From the NCBI RefSeq assembly GCF_900119795.1, contig NZ_LT634361.1:310001-374000 (forward strand): a stretch of 64,000 nucleotides of DNA. The letters are read 5' to 3'. The notes below the pieces were generated by a model. It did no database searches, was not told where the DNA came from, and saw nothing but the letters and a program-made list of their open reading frames with translations. This stretch comes from Tenacibaculum maritimum NCIMB 2154 (GTDB taxonomy: Bacteria; Bacteroidota; Bacteroidia; Flavobacteriales; Flavobacteriaceae). Positions 1 through 57,056 of the stretch are shown in pieces. Every line of letters begins with the position of its first letter. Position 1 is the first letter of the stretch. Both the position numbers and the translations under genes were made by a program.

Positions 1-3000
1 ATGGAGATGGAATTCCTAATTATTTAGATTTAGATTCGGATAACGATGGTTGTAATGATGTGGTGGAGTCAGGTGGTGTGGATGCGAATAATGATGGTGT
101 TTTAGATGGAGATGGTTTTAATTCTTCTGGTCAAGTAACTACAGGAGGAGTTGTTTTAGGATCTAGCTATAATGGAATAACTGGAGAAGAAATAATGGCT
201 ACTCAAGTATTGGTAGATCCTACAGCGTTAGTAGATCAAACCATAGAAAGTGGTAATCCAGCTACATTTACAATAACTTCGGCTTCAGCAACTAGCACGA
301 CTGTTTTTACGGGTACGGCTCCATCAACGGTGCCTAATTATGCAGATGCATCTGCTACGGATGTTTCAGGCGCTATTGTATATCAATGGCAGGAAGATGG
401 CGTTGATTTATCAAATACAGGAGTGTATTCAGGAGTCAACACAACTACATTAACAATAAGTAGTGTAGCTGGGTTAGACGGGAAAGTATATAATTTAGTG
501 ATAACACATCCTGAGAATGCTTGTATAAATATACAAAATAATGCAATCTTAACAGTTACTCTTTCAATAGATGCAGTAGATGATAATTTTACAGGAAGTC
601 CAGTTACAGCAGGAGATAATACTGCAAGTGTAGTGGGTAATGATACGTTGGATGGCAGTGGAGTAGTGATAGGAACAGGAGCTGGCGAGGTAAGTTTGAG
701 TGGAGTTACGGTTCCAGCAGGCTTGACGCTAAATGGAGATGGAACAGTGAGTGTTGCTACTGGTACTGCTTCTGGTAGCTATACTGTAGAGTATGAGATT
801 TGTGAGAATGGAGCGACTCCAGTAAATTGTGATCGAGCTACGGCAACTATAGTAGTAGCAAATCCAATAGATGCAGTAGATGATGATTTTACAGGAAGTC
901 CAGTTACAGCAGGAGATAATACCGCAAGTGTAGTGGATAATGATACGTTGGATGGCAGTGGAGTAGTGATAGGAACAGGAGCCGGCGAGGTAAGTTTGAG
1001 TGGAGTTACGGTTCCAGCAGGCTTGACGCTAAATGGAGATGGGACAGTTAGTGTGGCTACTGGTACACCTTCTGGTAGTTATGCAGTGGTGTATGAGATT
1101 TGTGAGAATGGAGCGACTCCGGCGAATTGTGATCGAGCTACGGCAACTATAGTGGTATCGAATCCAATAGATGCAGTAGATGATGATTTTACAGGAAGTC
1201 CAGTTACAGCAGGAGATAATACGTCTAGTGTAGTTGGTAATGATACGTTGGATGGCAGTGGAGTAGTGATAGGAACAGGAGTTGGCGAGGTAAGTTTAAG
1301 TGGAGTTACGGTTCCAGCAGGCTTGACGCTAAACGGAGATGGAACAGTGAGTGTGGCTACTGGTACTGCTTCTGGTAGTTATGCAGTGGTGTATGAGATT
1401 TGTGAGAATGGAGCGACTCCAGTAAATTGCGATCGAGCTACGGCAACTATAGTGGTATCGAATCCAATAGATGCAGTAGATGATGATTTTACAGGAAGTC
1501 CAGTTACAGCAGGAGATAATACGTCTAGTGTAGTTGGTAATGATACGTTGGATGGCAGTGGAGTAGTGATAGGAACAGGAGCTGGCGAGGTAAGTTTGAG
1601 TGGAGTTACAGTTCCAGCAGGCTTGACGCTAAATGGAGATGGGACAGTGAGTGTGGCTACTGGTACTGCTTCTGGTAGTTATGCAGTGGTGTATGAGATT
1701 TGTGAGAATGGAGCGACTCCAGTAAATTGTGATCGAGCTACGGCAACTATAGTAGTAGCAAATCTAATAGATGCAGTAGATGATAATTTTACAGGAAGTC
1801 CAGTTACAGCAGGAGATAATACGTCTAGTGTAGTTGGTAATGATACGTTGGATGGCAGTGGAGTAGTGATAGGAACAGGAGCTGGCGAGGTAAGTTTGAG
1901 TGGAGTTACGGTTCCAGCAGGCTTGACGCTAAATGGAGATGGAACAGTGAGTGTTGCTACTGGTACTGCTTCTGGTAGCTATACTGTAGAGTATGAGATT
2001 TGTGAGAATGGAGCGACTCCAGTAAATTGTGATCGAGCTACGACAACTATAGTAGTAGCAAATCCAATAGATGCAGTAGATGATGATTTTACAGGAAGTC
2101 CAGTTACAGCAGGAGATAATACGTCTAGTGTATTGGATAATGATACGTTGGACGGCAGTGGAGTAGTGATAGGAACAGGAGCCGGCGAGGTAAGTTTGAG
2201 TGGAGTTACGGTTCCAGCAGGCTTGACGCTAAATGGAGATGGAACAGTGAGTGTTGCTACTGGTACACCTTCTGGTAGTTATGCAGTGGTGTATGAGATT
2301 TGTGAGAATGGAGCGACTCCGGCGAATTGTGATCGAGCTACGGCAACTATAGTGGTATCGAATCCAATAGATGCATTAGATGATGATTTTACAGGAAGTC
2401 CAGTTACAGCAGGAGATAATACGTCTAGTGTAGTTGGTAATGATACGTTGGATGGCAGTGGAGTAGTGATAGGAACAGGAGTTGGCGAGGTAAGTTTAAG
2501 TGGAGTTACAGTTCCAGCAGGCTTGACGCTAAATGGAGATGGGACAGTTAGTGTGGCTACTGGTACTGCTTCTGGTAGTTATGCAGTGGTGTATGAGATT
2601 TGTGAGAATGGAGCGACTCCGGCGAATTGTGATCGAGCTACGGCAACTATAGTAGTAGCAAATCCAATAGATGCATTAGATGATGATTTTACAGGAAGTC
2701 CAGTTACAGCAGGAGATAATACGTCTAGTGTAGTTGGTAATGATACGTTGGATGGCAGTGGAGTAGTGATAGGAACAGGAGTTGGCGAGGTAAGTTTAAG
2801 TGGAGTTACGGTTCCAGCAGGCTTGACGCTAAACGGAGATGGAACAGTTAGTGTGGCTACTGGTACACCTTCTGGTAGTTATGCAGTGGTGTATGAGATT
2901 TGTGAGAATGGAGCGACTCCGGCGAATTGTGATCGAGCTACGGCAACTATAGTGGTATCGAATCCAATAGATGCAGTAGATGATGATTTTACAGGAAGTC

Positions 3001-46664: not shown

Positions 46665-47642
46665 TTACATTTTTAAAAGGTAAGCAAAGATCAGAGGAGC
46701 TACTATTGTAGCATCACTTTCAATAATGTATTTAGGAGTTTCGATTCCTAGCTTTCCCCAAGTAATTTTTTCATTAGGAACAGCACCTGAATAGGATCCA
46801 TAACTCGTAGTTGAATCTGAGATCTGGCAAAAATAACTCCAGAAAGGAGTTTCTGTCATTTCCATATCTTGATATAGCATTGGAACGACACATATAGGAA
46901 AGTCTCCAGCAATTCCTCCTCCTATTTGGAAAAAACCAATCCCGTTATCAGAATTATTTGTGTACCAATTAGCAAGAAACCCCATATATTCTATTCCAGT
47001 TTTCATGGTAGAAGCTTTCAACATTCCTTTCATTGTATATGAAGCAAAGATGTTTCCCATGGTAGAGTCTTCCCAGCCAGGAACCACTATTGGTAAGTTT
47101 TTTTGAGCAGCGGCATACATCCAAGAATCTTTGAGGTCAATTTCATAATATTCTTCTAGTACCCCAGAGAGTAATAGTTTGTACATAAATTCATGAGGAA
47201 AAAACCTTTCTTCATTTTCTTCGGCATCTTTCCAAATCTTATAGATATGCTTTTCTAAACGTCTAAAGGCTTCTTCTTCTGGAATACAAGTGTCAGTAAC
47301 ACGATTTAATCCTTTTAAAAGCAAATCCCACTCATCAGAAGGAGTTAAGTCACGATAGTCAGGAATTCGTTTATAATGAGAGTGAGCAACTAAATTCATG
47401 ATGTCCTCTTCTAAGTTAGCACCAGTACAAGAGATGATATGAACTTTATCTTGTCGTATCATTTCAGCAAATATTTTACCTAGTTCGGCAGTACTCATGG
47501 CTCCAGCTAATGAAACTAGCATTTTAGAACCTTGCTCTAATTGAGATTCATACCCTTTTGCTGCATCTACTAGAGAAGCTGCATTGAAATGTAAAAAGAA
47601 TTTTTCAATAAATTCTGAAACAGGTTTTTTATTAGTATTCAT
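46665..47642 (-). CDS. Deoxyhypusine synthase-like protein (possible homospermidine or related aminobutyl transferase)
   Basis: The 325-residue protein has the DHS fold signals: SLAGAMSTAELGKIFAEMI, ISCTGANLEEDIMN, a central NLPIVVPGWEDSTMGN, GGGIAGDFPICVVP and the C-terminal lysine region ITWGKLGIE (Lys297), where eukaryotic DHS forms its enzyme-imine intermediate. Bacteria generally lack eIF5A, so the likely reaction is NAD-dependent aminobutyl transfer between polyamines, as in homospermidine synthases. It is the last gene of the operon that makes putrescine from arginine and overlaps speB by 11 bp. The exact product is inferred. Confidence 0.9.
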   Translation of the reverse strand: MNTNKKPVSEFIEKFFLHFNAASLVDAAKGYESQLEQGSKMLVSLAGAMSTAELGKIFAEMIRQDKVHIISCTGANLEEDIMNLVAHSHYKRIPDYRDLTPSDEWDLLLKGLNRVTDTCIPEEEAFRRLEKHIYKIWKDAEENEERFFPHEFMYKLLLSGVLEEYYEIDLKDSWMYAAAQKNLPIVVPGWEDSTMGNIFASYTMKGMLKASTMKTGIEYMGFLANWYTNNSDNGIGFFQIGGGIAGDFPICVVPMLYQDMEMTETPFWSYFCQISDSTTSYGSYSGAVPNEKITWGKLGIETPKYIIESDATIVAPLIFAYLLKM

Positions 47643-48573
47643 TATTATCTTTAAATTTTAAAAGTTTATTAAAAGGAGAGTTGCTTTTGTCTTCGAAATC
47701 TTCCTCCTCTTCCTCAAGGTTTGAAGAAAACTTATAACTCAACATTTTATAATACAATTTTGCTGCTAAAAAATCAGATGATTTTTCATTTGGATTGGGA
47801 CAAAGTTCAACTAGGTCGAAACCAACTACGTTTTTCTTAGAGAATACTTTACTTAAAAAAGAAAGAGTTTCATACCAAAGTAGCCCTCCCGGTTCAGGAG
47901 TTCCTGTACTAGGCATAATAGATGGATCCAGCGCGTCTAAATCAAAAGTTATAAATACGTCATTGGTAAGCAAGTCTATTACATCATCCATCCAGTATTC
48001 ATTGGTAGCCATTTCATGCGCGAAAAAAACTTTATCTCTATTCATAACTCGGGTTTCAGAAATATCCATGCTACGAATACCAACTTGGATCAAGTTAGTG
48101 TGTTGATTAGCCTCATAAACAGCGCAAGCATGACTATAAGGAGAGCCATCATATTCTTTTCTAAGGTCGGCGTGAGCATCAATATGTAAAACGGTTAAAT
48201 TATCGAAACATTCATTAAATGCACGGATTGTTCCTATTGAGATGGAATGTTCACCTCCTAATATTGTTACAAATTTGTTTTTATTGATATATTTTTTAGT
48301 TAATTGGTGCACTGTATTTACCATTGCTTCTGGGGAAGATTTTTCAGTAATCTTCTCAGTGATATATATGCCTTCTTTATATACTTCTGAATTCGTTTCT
48401 ATATCGTATAGTTCCATATTTTCAGAGGCTTCTAAAAAAGCATCGATACCTTTGTCCGCCCCTTTTTGCCAGGTGCTAGTTTCATCATAAGGAACGGGTA
48501 TTAATACGATTTTCGAGGTTTCTAATTTAGCGTATTTCTCAGGGATTCCTGCGTAAGTTTTAGTTGTTTCCAT
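47632..48573 (-). CDS. speB: Agmatinase
   Basis: The 313-residue ureohydrolase converts agmatine to putrescine and urea. The binuclear manganese ligands are in ILGGEHSISIG, VLHIDAHADLRKEYDG and FDLDALDPSIMPSTGTPEPGG. It overlaps speA by 14 bp and the DHS-like gene by 11 bp, so translation of the three is probably coupled. Context favours agmatinase over other ureohydrolases because the arginine decarboxylase is next door. Confidence 0.95.
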   Translation of the reverse strand: METTKTYAGIPEKYAKLETSKIVLIPVPYDETSTWQKGADKGIDAFLEASENMELYDIETNSEVYKEGIYITEKITEKSSPEAMVNTVHQLTKKYINKNKFVTILGGEHSISIGTIRAFNECFDNLTVLHIDAHADLRKEYDGSPYSHACAVYEANQHTNLIQVGIRSMDISETRVMNRDKVFFAHEMATNEYWMDDVIDLLTNDVFITFDLDALDPSIMPSTGTPEPGGLLWYETLSFLSKVFSKKNVVGFDLVELCPNPNEKSSDFLAAKLYYKMLSYKFSSNLEEEEEDFEDKSNSPFNKLLKFKDNNEY

Positions 48574-49960
48574 ACCCTAGAATTGAAAGTAGTTCTTCAC
48601 TTTTTTGTTGTTCTTTAAATAATCTAGTAATTGTTTTCCCTTCTTTGTTTTTACTAATTAAAATATGTTTAGGGTTTGGTATTAAGCAATGTTGCAAGCC
48701 ACCAAAACCGCCGATACTTTCTTGATAAGCCCCTGTGTTAAAGAAACCAATATATAAGGGCGAATTTTTTTCATACATAGGTAAGTAGATGGCATTGATG
48801 TGTTGCTCGGAGTTATAGTAATCATCACTATCGCAAGTTAATCCTCCAAGTAAAACTCTTTCATACTTTACATCCCACTTATTAAGAGGTAGCATGATGA
48901 AGCGTTTATTGATAGCCCAAGAGTCTGGTAGGGTGGTGATAAATGATGAATTAATCATATTCCATTTTTCGCGGTCATTTTGTTTCTTTTGGTATAAAAC
49001 TTCGTAAATAGCCCCCCCAGACTCTCCAACTGTAAAAGACCCAAATTCGGTAAAGATATTAGGTACGTTTACTTTTGCATCATCGCAGGTAGCTTTGATT
49101 TGATTAAGAATTTCTTCAACCATATACTCGTAGTCATAATCAAATGCTAATGAGTTTTTAATAGGAAAGCCACCTCCTATATTTAAACTATCAAGGGTAG
49201 GGCATATCTTCTTTAGCTCAATATAAACACTAATACATTTTAAGAGTTCATTCCAGTAATAAGCATTGTCTTTAATTCCTGTATTGATAAAAAAATGAAG
49301 CATTTTTAGTTCTATCTGAGGATTTTTTTCAATTTCTCTTTTATAAAAAGAAACAATATTTTTATAACCAATTCCAAGCCTGCTTGTATAAAATTCAAAC
49401 TTAGGCTCTTCTTCAGAGGCTATACGTATGCCCACTTTAAAGTGGTTGCTAGTTTCATTTAATAGAAGATTCAATTCTTCGTAGTTATCTATTATAGGAA
49501 TACAATTCTTATGTCCTTCATCTATCAAACTAGCAATATTAGTAATATATTGATCTCTTTTAAAACCGTTGCATAAAACAAAAGAGGCATTATTTAGTTT
49601 GCCTTCTTTTTTCAAAGATTTTACAATATCTATATCAAAAGCAGAAGAAGTTTCAATATGAATATTATTTTTAAGAGCCTCTTCTAAAATATATTTAAAA
49701 TGCGAACTTTTAGTACAATATGAATAGTGATACTTTCCTTGATAATTTAACTTTTTGATGGCTTTGTTAAACCAACTTTTAGCCTTGTTAATATTTTCAG
49801 ATATTTTTGGTAAGTAGGTAAATTTTAATGGGGTGCCATATTGTTTAACCAACTGCACCATATCTATTTCGTGAAAAAATAAGTTGTTATTTTTTATTTG
49901 AAACTCCTCTTGAGGGAAATCAAATGTTTGCTCGATTAAGTCTTTATATTTAGTGTTCAT
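48560..49960 (-). CDS. speA: Arginine decarboxylase, fold type III
   Basis: The 466-residue PLP enzyme is shorter than the 630-residue E. coli SpeA and of the compact Bacteroidota type. The PLP lysine is Lys84 in YSYCTKSSHF. Further motifs are KVGIRIASEE, LNIGGGFPI, IFTEFGSFTVG and, near the C-terminus, TCDSDDYY, where the Cys-Asp pair completes the active site. It makes agmatine, the substrate of the next gene. The operon has a promoter box about 260 bp upstream and therefore a long leader. Confidence 0.94.
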   Translation of the reverse strand: MNTKYKDLIEQTFDFPQEEFQIKNNNLFFHEIDMVQLVKQYGTPLKFTYLPKISENINKAKSWFNKAIKKLNYQGKYHYSYCTKSSHFKYILEEALKNNIHIETSSAFDIDIVKSLKKEGKLNNASFVLCNGFKRDQYITNIASLIDEGHKNCIPIIDNYEELNLLLNETSNHFKVGIRIASEEEPKFEFYTSRLGIGYKNIVSFYKREIEKNPQIELKMLHFFINTGIKDNAYYWNELLKCISVYIELKKICPTLDSLNIGGGFPIKNSLAFDYDYEYMVEEILNQIKATCDDAKVNVPNIFTEFGSFTVGESGGAIYEVLYQKKQNDREKWNMINSSFITTLPDSWAINKRFIMLPLNKWDVKYERVLLGGLTCDSDDYYNSEQHINAIYLPMYEKNSPLYIGFFNTGAYQESIGGFGGLQHCLIPNPKHILISKNKEGKTITRLFKEQQKSEELLSILGYGNN

Positions 49961-50042
49961 TTTGCATCAAAAAAAATTATAAATAACAAACCACAGACCA
50001 TCTAATGGCTAGGGTATGAATAATCCTAATTGAAATAAAAAA

Positions 50043-50201
50043 TTAAACTCGTAATTCTAAATAAACTCCTCTAAGACGAAGATTTTGAAGAGGGGTTAAT
50101 AATAAGGAAGAAATCATAATTCTTTCGCTGTGCTTCTGAAACACTTCGCAACTTTTAGACTTCCATGAAAAGTTGGAAACGAAATAAGTAAAACATAACA
50201 T
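50043..50201 (-). CDS. Possible leader ORF upstream of speA (52 codons)
   Basis: An ATG-started frame of 52 codons lies wholly within the speA leader, starting 21 bp after the -7 box and ending 82 bp before the speA start. It would begin MLCFTYFVSNFSWKSK; an internal ATG would give a 24-residue form beginning MISSLLLTPLQNLRL. Three Arg codons fall in the last 12 codons (RLRG and LRV). The leader RNA also has hairpins: CAACTTTT with AAAAGTTG, and ACTCCTCT with AGAGGGGT. Coding is not proven; codon use is unremarkable and no homologue is recognised. Confidence 0.35.
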   Translation of the reverse strand: MLCFTYFVSNFSWKSKSCEVFQKHSERIMISSLLLTPLQNLRLRGVYLELRV

Positions 50202-50221
50202 TTAACCTATTATAAGAACAG

Positions 50222-50229
50222 CAAAGATA
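50222..50229 (-). promoter_or_regulatory. -7 box (TATCTTTG) of the polyamine operon
   Basis: An exact TAnnTTTG match on the minus strand is 262 bp from the speA start and is the best match in the 569-bp gap (49961-50529). It implies a leader of about 250 nt. Confidence 0.5.
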
Positions 50230-50291: not shown

Positions 50292-50316
50292 AAAGCTTCA
50301 CAAAAAGTGAAGCTTT
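50292..50316 (-). terminator. Minus-strand terminator next to the presumed att site
   Basis: A perfect 10-bp stem (AAAGCTTCAC with GTGAAGCTTT) and 5-base loop run into seven T on the minus strand. No gene ends here today; it fits as the terminator of a tRNA gene interrupted by the element to its right. Confidence 0.8.
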
Positions 50317-50529: not shown

Positions 50530-51828
50530 ATGAGCAATTTAGTATTACAAAGTACACATGGTGTAATTAGATTTAGTTTAAAAGAATCAATTAAAAGTTT
50601 AGAGTTAACTCCTAAAAAAGAGAGTTTGATTATGTTGCATTTTTCCTCAAAAGGAAGACGCTTTAAAAAGAGTATAGGTTATAAGTGTAGCTTAAAGAAT
50701 TGGGATGTAACTAAGCAAAGAGTTAAAACGGGGAAAGGAATGGTTGCGAATGCCTATGAGGTTAATGCATTTATAAACAATATCCAATCTTATGCAGAAG
50801 AAGAACTTACTAAAATCAAAAAAATAAATGATTTTATAGATGTAAAATTGCTATCATCTTTAATAGAAAAAAAGATAAAAGGAGAAGATGAAATAGATAG
50901 GGAAGAAGAGAAAAATAAAGAATTGATTTATTACTCTAGAAAGGTATTAGAGCAAAAGAAAAGTCAAATTAAAATAGTGACAACAAGATCATGTAACCAA
51001 ACAATTAAAATGTTAGAAAAGTATGAGAAGTCAAGTGGATACTTATTAAGGTTTGATGATGTTGATTTATCTTTTTACAGAGGGTTCGTTCAGTTTTTAG
51101 AGAATGAAGGCTATAGTTTAAATAGTGTAGGGAAACATATTAAGAATCTTAAAGTTTTTCTCAATGACGCTCTAACTAATGGGGTTACTGATAATTCAAT
51201 TTTTAAAAGTAGAAGCTTTAAGGTGTTAAAAGAAACTACAACAGAGATATTTCTAACTAAAGAAGAATTAGAAATCTTAGCTAATGAAGATTTTAGTAAA
51301 AGATCAAAACTAGAATTGGCAAAGGATATTTTTTTGATAGGTTGTTATACTGGGCAAAGGGTTAGCGATTATAATGGCTTCACAGAAGAAAATATTGAGG
51401 TCATTAAAGGTCGTGAAGTTATTAAGATACATCAGAAAAAGACAGGTACGATTGTTCGTATTCCAATTACTTCTAAGATTCAAAAGGTAATGGATAGATA
51501 TAATGGAGGTTTTCCGCCAAAACTAAGCGAACCAATTTTAAGAGAGAATATAAAATTAGCTTGTAAAAAAGCTGGGTTTAAAGAATTGATAACAGTTTCT
51601 TATACAAAAGGAGGAAGGTTAGTAAGAGAAGGAATTCCAAAGTATGATTTAGTTAAAACACATACTGCGAGAAGAACATTTTGTACAAATCATTATATCG
51701 ATCAAAAACCTATTCAAAATATAATGCTTTTTTCTGGTCATAAAACAGAACGAGAATTTTTAAAGTATGTTAGAATTGAAAAAAGGGAAGAGGCTTTAAT
51801 AGTGATGGAAAGTGGTTTTTTTGATTGA
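50530..51828 (+). CDS. Tyrosine-type site-specific recombinase (integrase)
   Basis: The 432-residue protein has an N-terminal arm-binding region, a SAM-like core-binding domain (about 145-235) and a C-terminal catalytic domain. The catalytic residues are Arg277 (TGQRVSD), Lys in HQKKTG, His378 and Arg381 (HTARRTF), His404 (FSGHKTE) and nucleophile Tyr413 (FLKYVRI). All are intact. It matches the Bacteroidota phage/ICE integrase type. It reads away from the presumed attL and faces the minus-strand defence cluster. A hairpin terminator follows. Confidence 0.96.
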   Translation: MSNLVLQSTHGVIRFSLKESIKSLELTPKKESLIMLHFSSKGRRFKKSIGYKCSLKNWDVTKQRVKTGKGMVANAYEVNAFINNIQSYAEEELTKIKKINDFIDVKLLSSLIEKKIKGEDEIDREEEKNKELIYYSRKVLEQKKSQIKIVTTRSCNQTIKMLEKYEKSSGYLLRFDDVDLSFYRGFVQFLENEGYSLNSVGKHIKNLKVFLNDALTNGVTDNSIFKSRSFKVLKETTTEIFLTKEELEILANEDFSKRSKLELAKDIFLIGCYTGQRVSDYNGFTEENIEVIKGREVIKIHQKKTGTIVRIPITSKIQKVMDRYNGGFPPKLSEPILRENIKLACKKAGFKELITVSYTKGGRLVREGIPKYDLVKTHTARRTFCTNHYIDQKPIQNIMLFSGHKTEREFLKYVRIEKREEALIVMESGFFD

Positions 51829-53180: not shown

Positions 53181-54980
53181 TTATTTTATTTGCTTTATAT
53201 TTTCAGATCCAAACCAGACTTCAATTTGTTTCATTGCTTGCTCTCCCATTTTAGATAAGGCTAAAACAACCAAATTCTCCTTTGCTCTTGAGCATGAAAC
53301 ATAAAATAAGTTTTTAGTTCTTTCTTTTCTTTCGTTACTATTATCACTATTGTCAAAATATCCTTCAAACTTGTATTGTGATTTCCAACTTGTATCGTCT
53401 ATAACTACTAGTACATTACGATATTCTTCTCCCTTTGTTCCGTGTTTTGTAGAAAATACATTTTGATTCTGAGTATGTTTAAAAAGGTTAACAAACTCTA
53501 TATATGGAAGCTCCATTAAAGAAGAGTTAAATCCAATATCTTTTTCTATTCTTTTTTTAGTATTCTCATCTAACCCTTCTGTATCAGTTTTAATCCTTTC
53601 AATAAACCTTAACATTCCTTGAGAGAACTTAATAAGCTTGTTATTGATAAGGAAATCAAATACATCTTTCACCTTTTTTGTTTCACGTATCTTAATTAAC
53701 TCTTCTATTTTATCTATAATTATTTTTTTATCCTCATGTTTTCTTAAGTTCACAGATGTGTCGTCATTTCGTTTCAAAAAATGAATAATATCATTGTAGT
53801 TTTTGTTTTCATAAAATGAAACCAAGTGTTCTATTCCTGTTTTTCGCTCTATTGATGTTTTTTTATCCATAGAACCTACAAAAAAAGCTGTAATTGGATT
53901 CTCTCTTTTTAAAAGTGCTTCATTTGCTCCCTGACCATAACGACGAGCATAAGTAGTATATAAATCCCCAAACCCTCCTCTTTTTGCTACTCTGCTATTT
54001 GCTATAATTAATATTTTATCTTCACTGTTTTCACTAAAATTCCATCCTTTCTTTTTTAATGTAGAAATAATATTATCATAGTTAACATTTTTTAAGGGTA
54101 CTAAAGAATCTTCATATTCTTTTGTTTTTTGATTTTTCTCTTTATCAGTATAATTTGTACAATTTATAAATTGTATACTACCTTGTTTTTTTTCAATTCC
54201 GTCAGGTATTTTTTGTTCAATATTTGTTCGGATTTTATTTAACAGCTTAATTACACTATGTGAGCTTCTATAATTTTCGGGTTTTGTAATTAAAGTTATT
54301 TTTTTAGAAATAATATATTCATTTAAAGAACCAATGCCTGTATTATATATTTTTTGGTGAGAATCTCCGTAAAAACCAATAAGAATTTTTTTCTTGTTTC
54401 TAGTTAAAAGAAAATCAACTAATGATTGTATAGTTTCAGGAGCTGTATCTTGATATTCATCCACGAGTATATATGGATATTTAGATGCCAAAATTGTAGT
54501 TAACAGTTTATTGTTTTCAAACATCTTTAGACTAAGTGTTATTAAGTCATCATGCCCAATTTTTCCATTTTCAAAATCACTAAATTTTCTATCACTGTAC
54601 TCTACACTTTTAATTCTATTAATTAGTCCTGACTCATATTTACTTGGCTCTTTTTTATTGTTTACGGTGTTAATTTTATCAAACTCAATTAAAAGTTGTT
54701 TATTATATGGTTTAATACAATCCCAAAGAAACTCATGAATAGTAGAAACTAGTACTAAAGGATTGTTTTGTAAGCGTTCTATAATTTCATTTTTGGCAAC
54801 ATTAGTGTATGTAATACAAACAATTCTTTGATTATTTAATTGTATTTTTTCTCCTTTGGTTTCTATTAAATAATTAATTGTTTGTATTAATGCATACGTT
54901 TTTCCTGAGCCAGCACCAGCTTCTAAGACATAACTAATGTTTTTTTCAATTTTTTTCTTAATTTGATTAATTGTGTCCAT
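53181..54980 (-). CDS. UvrD/Rep-like superfamily 1 helicase, GajB-like
   Basis: The 599-residue protein has SF1A helicase motifs in order: Q-like N-terminus and Walker A EAGAGSGKTYAL (residues 20-31), Ia CITYTNVAKNE, Walker B YILVDEYQDTAPE, III IGFYGDSHQKIY, IV KPENYRSSHSV, V TKHGTKGEEYRNVLVV and VI YVSCSRAKENLVVLAL. It starts immediately after the stop of the OLD-family gene (0 bp), the order and packing of gajA-gajB. GajB proteins are usually near 500 residues, so this one is longer, mostly between motifs IV and V. In Gabija, GajB is thought to sense DNA ends and activate GajA; that role here is inferred. Confidence 0.9.
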   Translation of the reverse strand: MDTINQIKKKIEKNISYVLEAGAGSGKTYALIQTINYLIETKGEKIQLNNQRIVCITYTNVAKNEIIERLQNNPLVLVSTIHEFLWDCIKPYNKQLLIEFDKINTVNNKKEPSKYESGLINRIKSVEYSDRKFSDFENGKIGHDDLITLSLKMFENNKLLTTILASKYPYILVDEYQDTAPETIQSLVDFLLTRNKKKILIGFYGDSHQKIYNTGIGSLNEYIISKKITLITKPENYRSSHSVIKLLNKIRTNIEQKIPDGIEKKQGSIQFINCTNYTDKEKNQKTKEYEDSLVPLKNVNYDNIISTLKKKGWNFSENSEDKILIIANSRVAKRGGFGDLYTTYARRYGQGANEALLKRENPITAFFVGSMDKKTSIERKTGIEHLVSFYENKNYNDIIHFLKRNDDTSVNLRKHEDKKIIIDKIEELIKIRETKKVKDVFDFLINNKLIKFSQGMLRFIERIKTDTEGLDENTKKRIEKDIGFNSSLMELPYIEFVNLFKHTQNQNVFSTKHGTKGEEYRNVLVVIDDTSWKSQYKFEGYFDNSDNSNERKERTKNLFYVSCSRAKENLVVLALSKMGEQAMKQIEVWFGSENIKQIK

Positions 54981-57056
54981 TTATGTCTTTGTGATTGTTA
55001 TTACCTCTTCTTTATTTTTTTTAATTGATTTTTCTAACCATTCTAATCCTTCAGAAATATAAACAGGGACTCTCCATTCTCCTATTTCTTCTGGAAATGA
55101 CATCACATCAAAAGCAAAATTTGTTTTTGAACTTGAACTTATTGGAGCTAATTCATAAGGGGTTGCTGATGTTAAATCTTCTATTTTCTTAACCTTAGAA
55201 AAGCTAAATAAATTCTTTACTTTTTTTTCTTGCCCTTTTTCATTAATGTATTTGGATTTCAATAAACTTAAGTTTGAATTAATAAAAGCTTCTTCAAAAC
55301 TTCTAGCTGTTATACCATTCTCTTCTGTTTGATAAGCAACTCTTATAATATTAGAACTTATTTTATCTTTATTTTTAACTTCAATTAATTCTTTTATAGT
55401 TTCTTTAGCAGGAATCCAGTCTTTTAAAGTATGATTTGATGTTTTTTCACCGTTGATACCGTTGTTTACTGCACATCTTTCCCCTGTTTTAGCATCAATC
55501 GAATCTATATCGGTTATAACTAAAGTTTGTAAGTTTAAAAATTCTAAAATCTCTTTGAATTTATGAGTGTATGCTCCTCCAACTTCTAAGACAGTAATGT
55601 ATTGTGTTGCTAATTTAGGAGCTGATTTTTTAATGAATTGTGGCATTAACATTCTTTCAGTTGTACCTTCAACTAAAATTACTTTATCAGAAAAAAACAA
55701 GTCAGACTTATGTAAGGTTAAATATTGTTTTAAAAAACGTGCAGTAAGTTTTTTATTGGAGATTTTAAGAATATTAAAGTCTTTGACTTCTACTTCCTTT
55801 TCTAGTTTGTTAAAATATCTAATTCGCTTAAATCCTTTTTCAGAATCTATTCCTGCTTCAGATAGTATATGAGAAGAGTGGGAAGTTATGATTAATTGAA
55901 CATATATTTTAAGTTTAGACGCTTTTTCTATAAGCCCTTTTATTTGACTAATAAATACTTGTTGCATTTGTGGGTGCATATGTGCTTCAGGTTCTTCAAT
56001 TAGTACAGTTAAAAATTCAGAAACCTTTTCTTCTTTTGCATTTTTAAAACGTTCTATAAAACTTGCTAATTCAAGAATCATGTATATTAAGTTACTGTAT
56101 CCTAGTCCGTTATAGCTCTCTGGTAAATCGATTTCATCTTGCTTGTAATAATATTTTATATTATTTTTAATTACAGATTCTGAATCAAATTCAGATTCAA
56201 TTGAAATAGGGGGTATAGCTATGGGGGTTGATGCTCCAAATGATTTTAATTCTTTAATGATTTGTTGTAATACAGCATTGTATTTGGCTTTTAGGTCTTT
56301 AGAAATTTCTGTTAAGGATTTTTCTACAGCTGTGACATTAGTATCGGTTTTATCTCTTTCGTTATAATATTTAGAAAAACCTAAAGCTAATGTTTTATTC
56401 CGATCACTTTTTTTATCATCTAATACTCTAAGTGCTTTTATATCTTCAAATGAAACTATTTTTCTAAGCTTATCTTTATATCCTATTTCAATTTCTCTTA
56501 AGTAATCTGATAAAATGTCTTTAGCGTAACATTTTAATCTGTAATGATTTTTTATGTTTTCCTTAAGGTAAGATATCAAAGTAGTTTCTCTTGTTTCTCT
56601 ATTATGAAATGCTTTTAATAATCCTAAAGAGTTATGAGGTTCGAAAGATAGTAATGAACAAGCGTCATTTCTCTTTTCGTCAAGATCTGTAATAAATTCT
56701 TTCAATTCAACCAACAAGTCATTTTCTTTGTCATAAATAAACTCAATTTGTAGTTGAATTTTAGGGAAACGTTCAATTATGTCCTTTTCGATAGCCTCTT
56801 TTGTCTCTTCATCAATTTCTAACTCTAATGTCTTTTTAAAATCAATATATAGTTCTTTAAATAAAGGATATGAAGATTGTGAGAAGTCCTCAAAAGATAA
56901 AGAGTCTTCTCCTGAAGTAAAAATTTTAATTACTTCAAATAATGAAGTCTTTCCAGTATTATTTCTTCCTATGATTAATGTAATATCGTCTTCTAAGTCA
57001 ATTGATACATCGGCTAATAATCTAAAACATTTTACTTTTATATTTTTTATTCTCAT
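54981..57056 (-). CDS. OLD-family ATPase with C-terminal TOPRIM nuclease, GajA-like
   Basis: The 691-residue protein joins an ABC-type ATPase (Walker A IIGRNNTGKTSLF at residues 29-41; Walker B region VLIEEPEAHMHPQMQQVF near 354; switch IITSHSSHIL) to a TOPRIM domain with the glutamate in ILVEGTTERMLMP (about 462) and the Asp motif LVITDIDSID (about 513). That is the architecture of overcoming-lysogenization-defect nucleases. The adjacent UvrD-like gene makes it a class 2 OLD, as in Gabija. The ATPase carries a long insert (about 70-330), and the protein exceeds the usual GajA length of about 580. It is separated from the upstream HNH gene by 55 bp. Confidence 0.92.
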   Translation of the reverse strand: MRIKNIKVKCFRLLADVSIDLEDDITLIIGRNNTGKTSLFEVIKIFTSGEDSLSFEDFSQSSYPLFKELYIDFKKTLELEIDEETKEAIEKDIIERFPKIQLQIEFIYDKENDLLVELKEFITDLDEKRNDACSLLSFEPHNSLGLLKAFHNRETRETTLISYLKENIKNHYRLKCYAKDILSDYLREIEIGYKDKLRKIVSFEDIKALRVLDDKKSDRNKTLALGFSKYYNERDKTDTNVTAVEKSLTEISKDLKAKYNAVLQQIIKELKSFGASTPIAIPPISIESEFDSESVIKNNIKYYYKQDEIDLPESYNGLGYSNLIYMILELASFIERFKNAKEEKVSEFLTVLIEEPEAHMHPQMQQVFISQIKGLIEKASKLKIYVQLIITSHSSHILSEAGIDSEKGFKRIRYFNKLEKEVEVKDFNILKISNKKLTARFLKQYLTLHKSDLFFSDKVILVEGTTERMLMPQFIKKSAPKLATQYITVLEVGGAYTHKFKEILEFLNLQTLVITDIDSIDAKTGERCAVNNGINGEKTSNHTLKDWIPAKETIKELIEVKNKDKISSNIIRVAYQTEENGITARSFEEAFINSNLSLLKSKYINEKGQEKKVKNLFSFSKVKKIEDLTSATPYELAPISSSSKTNFAFDVMSFPEEIGEWRVPVYISEGLEWLEKSIKKNKEEVITITKT

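Follow-up and report, generated by a model that had tools for sequence, protein, structure and literature searches.

The speA operon and its surroundings

The window analysed here, a stretch of 64,000 nt from the genome of Tenacibaculum maritimum NCIMB 2154, carries on its reverse strand a putative polyamine operon of three genes. The first (48560..49960) encodes a speA-like arginine decarboxylase of 466 aa, the best matches of which are arginine decarboxylase models, with scores under the curated cut-offs, and which also matches PF02784. It is followed by the gene for agmatinase (speB, 47632..48573; TIGR01230 above cut-off) and by a gene for a deoxyhypusine-synthase-like polyamine enzyme (46665..47642), assigned from PF01916 above cut-off, with every NCBIfam match of its product under cut-off. 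An upstream open reading frame (uORF) of 52 codons and a TAA stop codon (50043..50201, reverse strand) precedes speA. It ends in ...LRLRGVYLELRV, with three Arg within the last twelve codons, just as described in a first-pass annotation of this DNA.

The same annotation had placed a promoter box in front of speA. The sequence in question, TATCTTTG (50222..50229, read as 50229-50222 on the reverse strand), is located 269 nt from the speA start and 20 nt from the uORF start, and is promoter-like in that it belongs to the TAnnTTTG type, which we take to be the promoter -7 consensus of this phylum. The box recurs in relatives: TAnnTTTG is found within 90 nt before the uORF in 78/206 leaders, compared to 8% expected from shuffled sequence, at spacings to the uORF start of most commonly 19-22 nt, and a promoter-like box lies ~265-300 nt before speA in many of the 80 loci compared below. 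Just 5′ of the box in the window, a terminator-like hairpin of the rho-independent type with a T run (50292-50316, reverse strand) would insulate the speA operon from upstream transcription.

A tyrosine recombinase gene with weak XerC/XerD matches (50530-51828, forward strand) is divergent from the speA leader and begins ~330 nt from the uORF start. Close upstream of the leader, two genes on the reverse strand give strong PADLOC matches: the product of the first, a UvrD-like helicase (53181-54980), matches the GajB model, and that of the second, of the OLD/AAA type (54981-57056), the GajA model. The region 53181-57056 is thus predicted to be a Gabija anti-phage system. Together, the recombinase and the Gabija genes suggest an integrated element beside the speA operon; a search of the T. 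maritimum genome for a copy of the attachment site of this putative element found none.

Conservation of the leader in relatives

A SpeA protein scan of bacterial genomes gave 80 loci. One of these (L066) was dropped, as its contig ends at speA and hence provides no upstream sequence, and the resulting set of 80 speA leaders is made up of 79 loci plus the window. In 71/80 leaders, codons 1-32 of the uORF can be aligned with those of the window without any gap, and the uORF is 52-60 codons long in 70 of these 71. Left out of the alignment were L024, L025, L033, L045, L059, L069, L073, L076 and L078, in which the 32-codon block is absent or too different; L059, L069, L073 and L076 feature an ORF with a similar tail and a different first half, and 5/80 leaders have neither the block nor a similar-tailed ORF. 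Among the 71 aligned leaders, the uORF starts with TTG in 42 cases, with ATG in 26 and with GTG in 3. The lack of any stop codon within the block in 71/71 leaders is partly by construction, because selection of the sequences demanded an open 32-codon frame; when a frame-blind anchor was used, the frame was open in 147/149 leaders, with an NTG start in 145/149 and a TTG start in 89/149.

Several loci depart from this pattern. In L034, a locus from a metagenome-assembled genome, the RNA element described below is present and the uORF frame continues without a stop before speA, either by real loss or by assembly error. In L024, L033, L045, L276, L285 and L288, speA lies directly behind a recurring gene (protein end …GLTKKDLPRG…, pseudouridine-synthase-like by eye), and no leader was found. 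Locus L001 is on a contig labelled Rhodobacteraceae; since its SpeA (85% identical to that of the window) and its leader are of the Tenacibaculum/Polaribacter type, this record is probably mislabelled.

A pseudoknotted RNA element around the uORF start

The beginning of the uORF is overlapped by a structured RNA element, described by covariance model R1 and matched in the window at 50103..50224 on the reverse strand (73.5 bits, E 2.1e-12), which covers the uORF start and codons 1-32. Of its five helices, P1 encloses P2 and P3, and P3 encloses P4 and P5, while a pseudoknot is formed between the P4 loop, GGAAG, and CTTCC just past P1. The window version of P2 (50183..50211; ~50211-50201 with 50193-50183), identified from sequence and fold, has the uORF start codon at the end of its loop. 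P3 (50123..50184; 50184-50180 with 50127-50123) and P5 (50130..50144; 50144-50139 with 50135-50130) were read from the sequence, P3 lying one nucleotide off the family register. P4 (50149..50175; 50175-50168 with 50156-50149), found by inverted-repeat search, is a perfect helix of 8 bp, and the pseudoknot (50106..50164) joins GGAAG at 50164-50160 to CTTCC at 50110-50106, as indicated by covariation. P1, which is supported in the family (71 leaders, 99 further matches), is poorly formed and unsupported in the window in the register of the model. Two perfect hairpins had previously been read from the window sequence. The one near 50150-50175 is exact (arms 50149-50156 and 50168-50175), whereas the region given for the other, 50089-50119, contains no perfect inverted repeat of at least 6 nt; nearby, at ~50068-50094, there is a 5-bp CCTCT/AGAGG pairing with a long loop.

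Lack of a conserved frame or stems in close relatives had been named in advance as a refutation, and both a conserved frame and covarying stems were found. In the 71 aligned leaders, 89.8% of cells are paired over 33 pairs including the pseudoknot, two-sided changes occur in 25/33 pairs, and covariation scores 0.370, compared to 0.173 ± 0.006 for shuffled alignments and to 0.152 or 0.118 when pairing partners are slid by one column. For 99 distinct further matches the corresponding values are 91.9%, 27/33 and 0.320 (shuffled, 0.165), with the provisos that pair counts lean towards the model to which this alignment was fitted, and that the two tests are not fully independent because the sets overlap in species and the second contains the window (L121). 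In these two alignments, respectively, 83.4% and 90.0% of P2 cells, 88.7% and 96.4% of P3 cells, and 98.6% and 97.2% of pseudoknot cells are paired, the latter with changes on both sides; all pairs of P4 (8/8) and of P5 (4/4) show two-sided changes in both alignments. Mutual information in the gapless block, calculated with no structure assumed, also placed pairs of P4, P5 and the loop-to-tail pseudoknot among the top signals. Structure beyond chance is decisively indicated by this comparison with relatives and not by folding energy, which for the window leader alone is within the range of shuffled sequences (z -0.61; 47/200 shuffles fold at least as well). Known RNA families do not account for the element: Rfam 15 gave no family at gathering threshold in the window apart from three tRNAs, and in ten leader loci searched at E up to 1 only tRNA and a sub-threshold L20 leader match, the latter outside the element, were obtained.

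Distribution and linkage to polyamine genes

The covariance model matches 148/299 sampled Flavobacteriaceae genomes (E <= 0.01), with SpeA present in 201/299. In an order-wide sample 6/148 genomes were matched, and in a phylum-wide sample 7/247, all within Flavobacteriaceae; searches on samples of more than 40 genomes were run with stricter filters. T. maritimum itself has one confident copy. Among the 150 RNA matches listed, 127 could be tested against listed SpeA, and 123 of these lie 117-284 nt upstream of it on the same strand.

Seven copies located away from speA were examined, i.e. the other 4/127 testable matches and three from genomes without a SpeA match. The element precedes two small acidic proteins in L124-L126, short proteins that resemble the second of these by eye in L127-L129, and a glyoxalase-fold protein, 1.5 kb before speA, in L130. 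Among the matches listed, small acidic protein 2 is found 1.2-3.9 kb downstream of speA on the same strand in 40/49 cases, and in L246 the deoxyhypusine-synthase-like gene is followed by those for the two small acidic proteins (1091-1722), the first ahead of the second, and then by that for a glyoxalase-fold protein. The element thus appears to follow polyamine-operon genes. No Pfam or NCBIfam family above cut-off was found for small acidic proteins 1 and 2, both of which are absent from the operon in the window, and the second from the T. maritimum genome at E <= 0.001. In genome G179 (L129), two element copies are arranged head to head (2339-2461, reverse strand, and 2676-2798, forward strand), one directed towards speA, the other towards a gene that is ATP-grasp-like by eye and one for a short acidic protein, the N-terminus of which is signal-like.

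The two halves of the uORF

Differences between uORFs were counted by codon position in 2,325 pairs among 178 distinct sequences. For codons 2-32 they amount to 9,798, 9,756 and 9,554 at first, second and third positions, i.e. there is no periodicity, and the omega-like ratio, a simple count with a uniform mutation expectation and no fitted model, is 0.70. From codon 33 to the end, the corresponding numbers are 16,273, 15,488 and 27,396, a clear third-position excess with an omega-like ratio of 0.21, and no phase is apparent in the spacer past the uORF stop (22,151, 22,282 and 22,703). The pairs share ancestry, and thinning to 85 ORFs of less than 80% identity gave the same answer (0.76 for codons 2-32, 0.19 for codons 33 to the end and 0.14 for the last twelve), with ranges of 0.57-0.98 and 0.14-0.24 for the first and second half in 60% subsamples. 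The first half of the uORF (codons 1-32, 50201-50106 in the window) thus evolves as RNA, and the second (codons 33-52, 50105-50046) as protein.

Protein-level selection on the C-terminal part could also be the mark of a small protein that acts in trans, with the RNA element regulating both this protein and speA. Such a protein would be expected neither to lack a protein-level signature in its N-terminal 31 residues while its extreme C-terminus and stop codon are kept, nor to be encoded directly before speA in nearly all testable matches listed (123/127), and free copies outside polyamine-operon genes were not seen among the copies examined; we therefore consider this explanation very unlikely. 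The reading as a leader peptide that arrests the ribosome predicts a conserved uORF in cis of one operon and peptide-level selection centred on the stop codon and on those residues predicted to lie in the tunnel, and both are found here.

The peptide tail and the stop codon

In the window, the uORF ends with L-R-V-stop (50043..50054, reverse strand), a version of the tail [I/L/F]-[R/Q]-[I/V]-stop. In 170 distinct stop contexts, a set compiled without non-speA copies, L194, low-scoring anchors and L034, Ile or Val is found at position -1 in 155, Arg or Gln at -2 in 127 (Arg 70, Gln 57), and Ile, Phe or Leu at -3 in 161. The stop codon is TGA in 144/170 contexts, as opposed to 6/70 speA genes and 17/288 long ORFs at the same loci; the window, with TAA, differs from most of its relatives in this respect. 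It is the amino acids rather than the bases that are kept in the tail, because synonymous codons are mixed, with all three Ile, all four Val and all six Arg codons occurring. Among 27 tails that are less than 55% identical to each other, Ile or Val is last in 23, Arg is at -2 in 16 and Gln in 4, and the stop is TGA in 21; the tail signature and the mostly UGA stop persist even where the remaining tail differs. A Pfam search up to E 10 with four uORFs from four clades returned nothing above cut-off and one unrelated sub-cut-off match, to the window uORF.

The tail also occurs where the RNA was not detected. Of 26 SpeA leaders without a covariance-model match, 20 were taken and searched for ORFs ending 50-130 nt before speA. 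An ORF of at least 40 codons with a looser form of the tail is kept in 9/20, compared to 0.3 expected from shuffles, and the strict pattern in 5/20, compared to 0.0 expected, so that the peptide tail is the more persistent part of the leader. This bears on the idea of an RNA-only riboswitch, in which speA would be under the control of a metabolite aptamer formed by the pseudoknotted element, and the uORF would be open by accident. The element does have the conserved covarying fold before a metabolic gene that is typical of riboswitch classes, and its nested junctions and pseudoknot, strong covariation and association with a single gene are all in keeping with it. Coding selection on the C-terminal part, the tail motif itself, and maintenance of the tail where the RNA is undetected (9/20 leaders) or changed (L059, L069 and L073) nevertheless make an RNA-only riboswitch highly improbable.

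The first-pass annotation had envisaged a leader peptide that stalls according to arginine or polyamine level. A cis-acting leader peptide is still the best reading, but a role of its Arg codons as the sensor is not supported: Arg is absent from the last twelve codons in 85/178 distinct leader peptides, and after codon 32 in 77/178, and conservation lies in the final three residues and the stop codon. Classical amino-acid attenuation would have ribosomes slow down at uORF Arg codons whenever charged tRNA-Arg runs short, an idea put forward for the first of the Arg pairs in Salmonella orf34 (PMC6386406, accessible part). It agrees with the window uORF, where three of the last twelve codons are for Arg, and with Arg at -2 in 70/170 contexts. 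Simple arginine starvation sensing is disfavoured by the free variation in Arg-codon number, and Gln takes the place of Arg at -2 in 57/170 contexts; attenuation of this kind is highly improbable in our view.

The spacer between the uORF and speA

An arrest leader would also be expected to have a downstream switch, a hairpin or a Rho site, ahead of its gene. In the window a spacer hairpin (49965..50035, reverse strand) begins 10 nt past the first base of the stop codon of the uORF and ends 5 nt short of speA. In the alignment of the window's clade (10 sequences, without L002, which has a shorter spacer, L008, and the Polaribacter-type leaders L009-L012, L014 and L019), 24 pairs are predicted, of which 10 show two-sided changes, and pairing of the window spacer exceeds that of shuffles at p = 0.02. 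Pairing between the first 30 and the last 33 nt over 179 distinct spacers was 10.57, compared to 5.50 when shuffled, with 51/179 at p <= 0.05; the hairpin is not general in this set, being absent from many leaders, among them those of Muricauda and Winogradskyella. In the same spacers pairing of the speA start region was not raised (0.37, and 0.37 in shuffles), and a general stop-codon hairpin was discarded, the stop and the four following nt being paired at 0.49, compared to 0.44 in shuffles, with only 26/179 at p <= 0.05. Since a general signal for pairing at the stop codon or the speA start is weak or absent, opening of a sequestering hairpin is claimed for the window's clade only. As judged by comparison, the leader is real and conserved far better than the reading of a single sequence could show, and the pseudoknot, the split of the uORF and the spacer hairpin were all beyond such a reading.

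The position of the uORF stop, 49-97 nt before speA in most leaders, would also suit translational coupling without true arrest. Ordinary termination or slow release at this stop would keep ribosomes near and open the spacer for speA, the tail would set the release rate only, and the peptide would sense no metabolite, so that a ligand, if there is one, would act on the RNA through uORF initiation; the weak TTG starts noted above (42/71; 89/149) suggest tuned initiation, and the uORF start codon is located in the P2 loop. However, selection extending over ~20 codons (omega-like 0.19, and 0.14 for the last 12) exceeds what a release rate alone would need, and we regard coupling as rather unlikely.

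Relation to known leader systems

One of the closest known systems is SpeFL, or ORF34, the leader of speF in enterobacteria and other gamma-proteobacteria, which has Arg near its stop codon, acts on Rho and on a hairpin downstream of the stop, and has its own Pfam model, PF10940 (DUF2618) (PMC6386406, accessible part). SpeFL inhibits RF1 at the stop codon (PMC8429421, accessible part). Its arrest at that codon depends on ornithine. A resemblance to SpeFL had been suggested for the window, and in idea it stands: both are uORFs before a polyamine gene, and the one described here is apparently built to pause at its stop codon. Homology found no backing, as none of the four uORFs from four clades matched PF10940 (Pfam up to E 10). 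SpeFL precedes the ornithine decarboxylase gene speF, whereas the flavobacterial leader precedes a speA-like arginine decarboxylase gene, in another phylum and with another peptide; the HIRRT-HIMM core of SpeFL with its two consecutive Arg is absent from the window uORF and from the listed peptides of relatives. Moreover, the flavobacterial stop is mostly UGA while that of SpeFL is RF1-dependent, and, unlike in SpeFL, the start codon and N-terminal half of the flavobacterial uORF lie inside a covarying pseudoknotted RNA.

TnaC, the last codons of which are R23-P24-UGA and which arrests termination by leaving bound RF2 inactive (PMC8429421, accessible part), is similar in its penultimate Arg and UGA stop, to be compared with Arg or Gln at -2 and UGA in most flavobacterial leaders. 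The fixed Trp12, Asp16 and Pro24 before UGA that characterise TnaC were not found, the flavobacterial peptides ending with Ile or Val instead of Pro and sharing no fixed Trp. TnaC also has only 24 codons, whereas the flavobacterial uORF has about 52-60 and is overlapped by structured RNA. In ErmCL-type attenuators, a hairpin covers the beginning of the main gene and is opened by stalling on the uORF (PMC10219788, accessible part). The likeness here is one of layout; there is no antibiotic gene at this locus, and the spacer hairpin is confined to part of the family. To our knowledge, and in contrast to ErmCL-type systems, members of this phylum would not be expected to rely on Shine-Dalgarno sequences.

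RNA-based control of polyamine metabolism is itself known from the spermidine riboswitch class (PMC10853860, accessible part), with which the flavobacterial leader shares this general role, but Rfam gave no match to the leader at threshold in the window or in ten leader loci. In the accessible parts of two papers, a term search of the former (PMC10853860) found no mention of speA, arginine decarboxylase or Bacteroidetes, and PMC2864571, which lists Bacteroidetes motifs, does not mention speA or polyamines. Literature searches yielded no paper on a leader RNA or leader peptide of speA in Bacteroidota, a weak absence given that subscription papers and preprints mostly lay outside their coverage.

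A proposed mechanism

Comparison among relatives establishes how the RNA folds, that the tail is under coding selection, which stop codon prevails, how tightly the leader is linked to the polyamine operon, and that the window's clade has a spacer hairpin, and from these we infer translation of the uORF, arrest, its ligand, the sign of control and the role of the RNA domain. On this basis, the leader is probably a nascent-peptide arrest or attenuation leader that serves a polyamine operon, and the start of its uORF is embedded in an RNA domain. The mRNA would begin at about the pseudoknotted element, with the start codon of the 52-60-codon uORF presented in the P2 loop. While translating the N-terminal half, the ribosome would unwind the RNA element, and the C-terminal half of ~20-26 residues would then occupy the exit tunnel. 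The tail [I/L/F]-[R/Q]-[I/V] and the mostly UGA stop may slow or block release, probably in response to a polyamine or to one of its precursors, for instance arginine, agmatine or ornithine. A ribosome stalled at the uORF stop would abut the spacer hairpin, and may thereby change how accessible the speA start is, or how well Rho can reach the spacer. The RNA element, for its part, may set or gate the frequency of uORF initiation, or may bind a metabolite.

The anatomy of the leader fits such termination arrest, for which TnaC and SpeFL are precedents, because the ORF lies in cis, selection bears on tunnel residues and stop codon, and the hairpin of the clade is within reach of a ribosome at the stop. 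Against this reading, the tail interiors are so varied that one conserved ligand pocket is not obvious. The limited occurrence of the spacer hairpin, pairing around the speA start that is no higher than in shuffles, the TAA stop and poor P1 of the window, the stopless uORF of L034 and the speA genes without a leader also count against it.

It is tempting to speculate further on an RNA-gated arrest peptide, with a pseudoknotted aptamer in the first half of the ORF, RNA and nascent-chain sensors in series, and an arrest code, focused on RF2, that consists of a C-terminal [I/L/F]-[R/Q]-[I/V]-UGA on an interchangeable tunnel sequence. This more specific version is tentative, and we put it forward as a possibility only.

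Possible implications for polyamine control in Bacteroidota

Taken as a whole, the leader looks like an undescribed switch in which the shape of the RNA and a peptide that stalls the ribosome would jointly govern the making of polyamines; in principle it would be a leader-peptide regulator, which is a known kind, fused in sequence with a pseudoknotted RNA. We know of few arrest peptides in Bacteroidota, and, if our reading is right, this would be a new family of leader regulators in that phylum. It would also represent an independent link between polyamine synthesis and ribosome-based sensing, comparable to SpeFL in enterobacteria. Eukaryotic polyamine uORFs tie polyamine synthesis to ribosome-based sensing as well. 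The copies of the leader away from speA point to small acidic proteins of no assigned family as members of polyamine operons. Finally, a single ORF split cleanly into an RNA-constrained and a peptide-constrained part would offer a natural system for separating the two layers, and with many dissimilar interiors sharing one C-terminal signature, the requirements of a release-factor arrest code would become directly testable.
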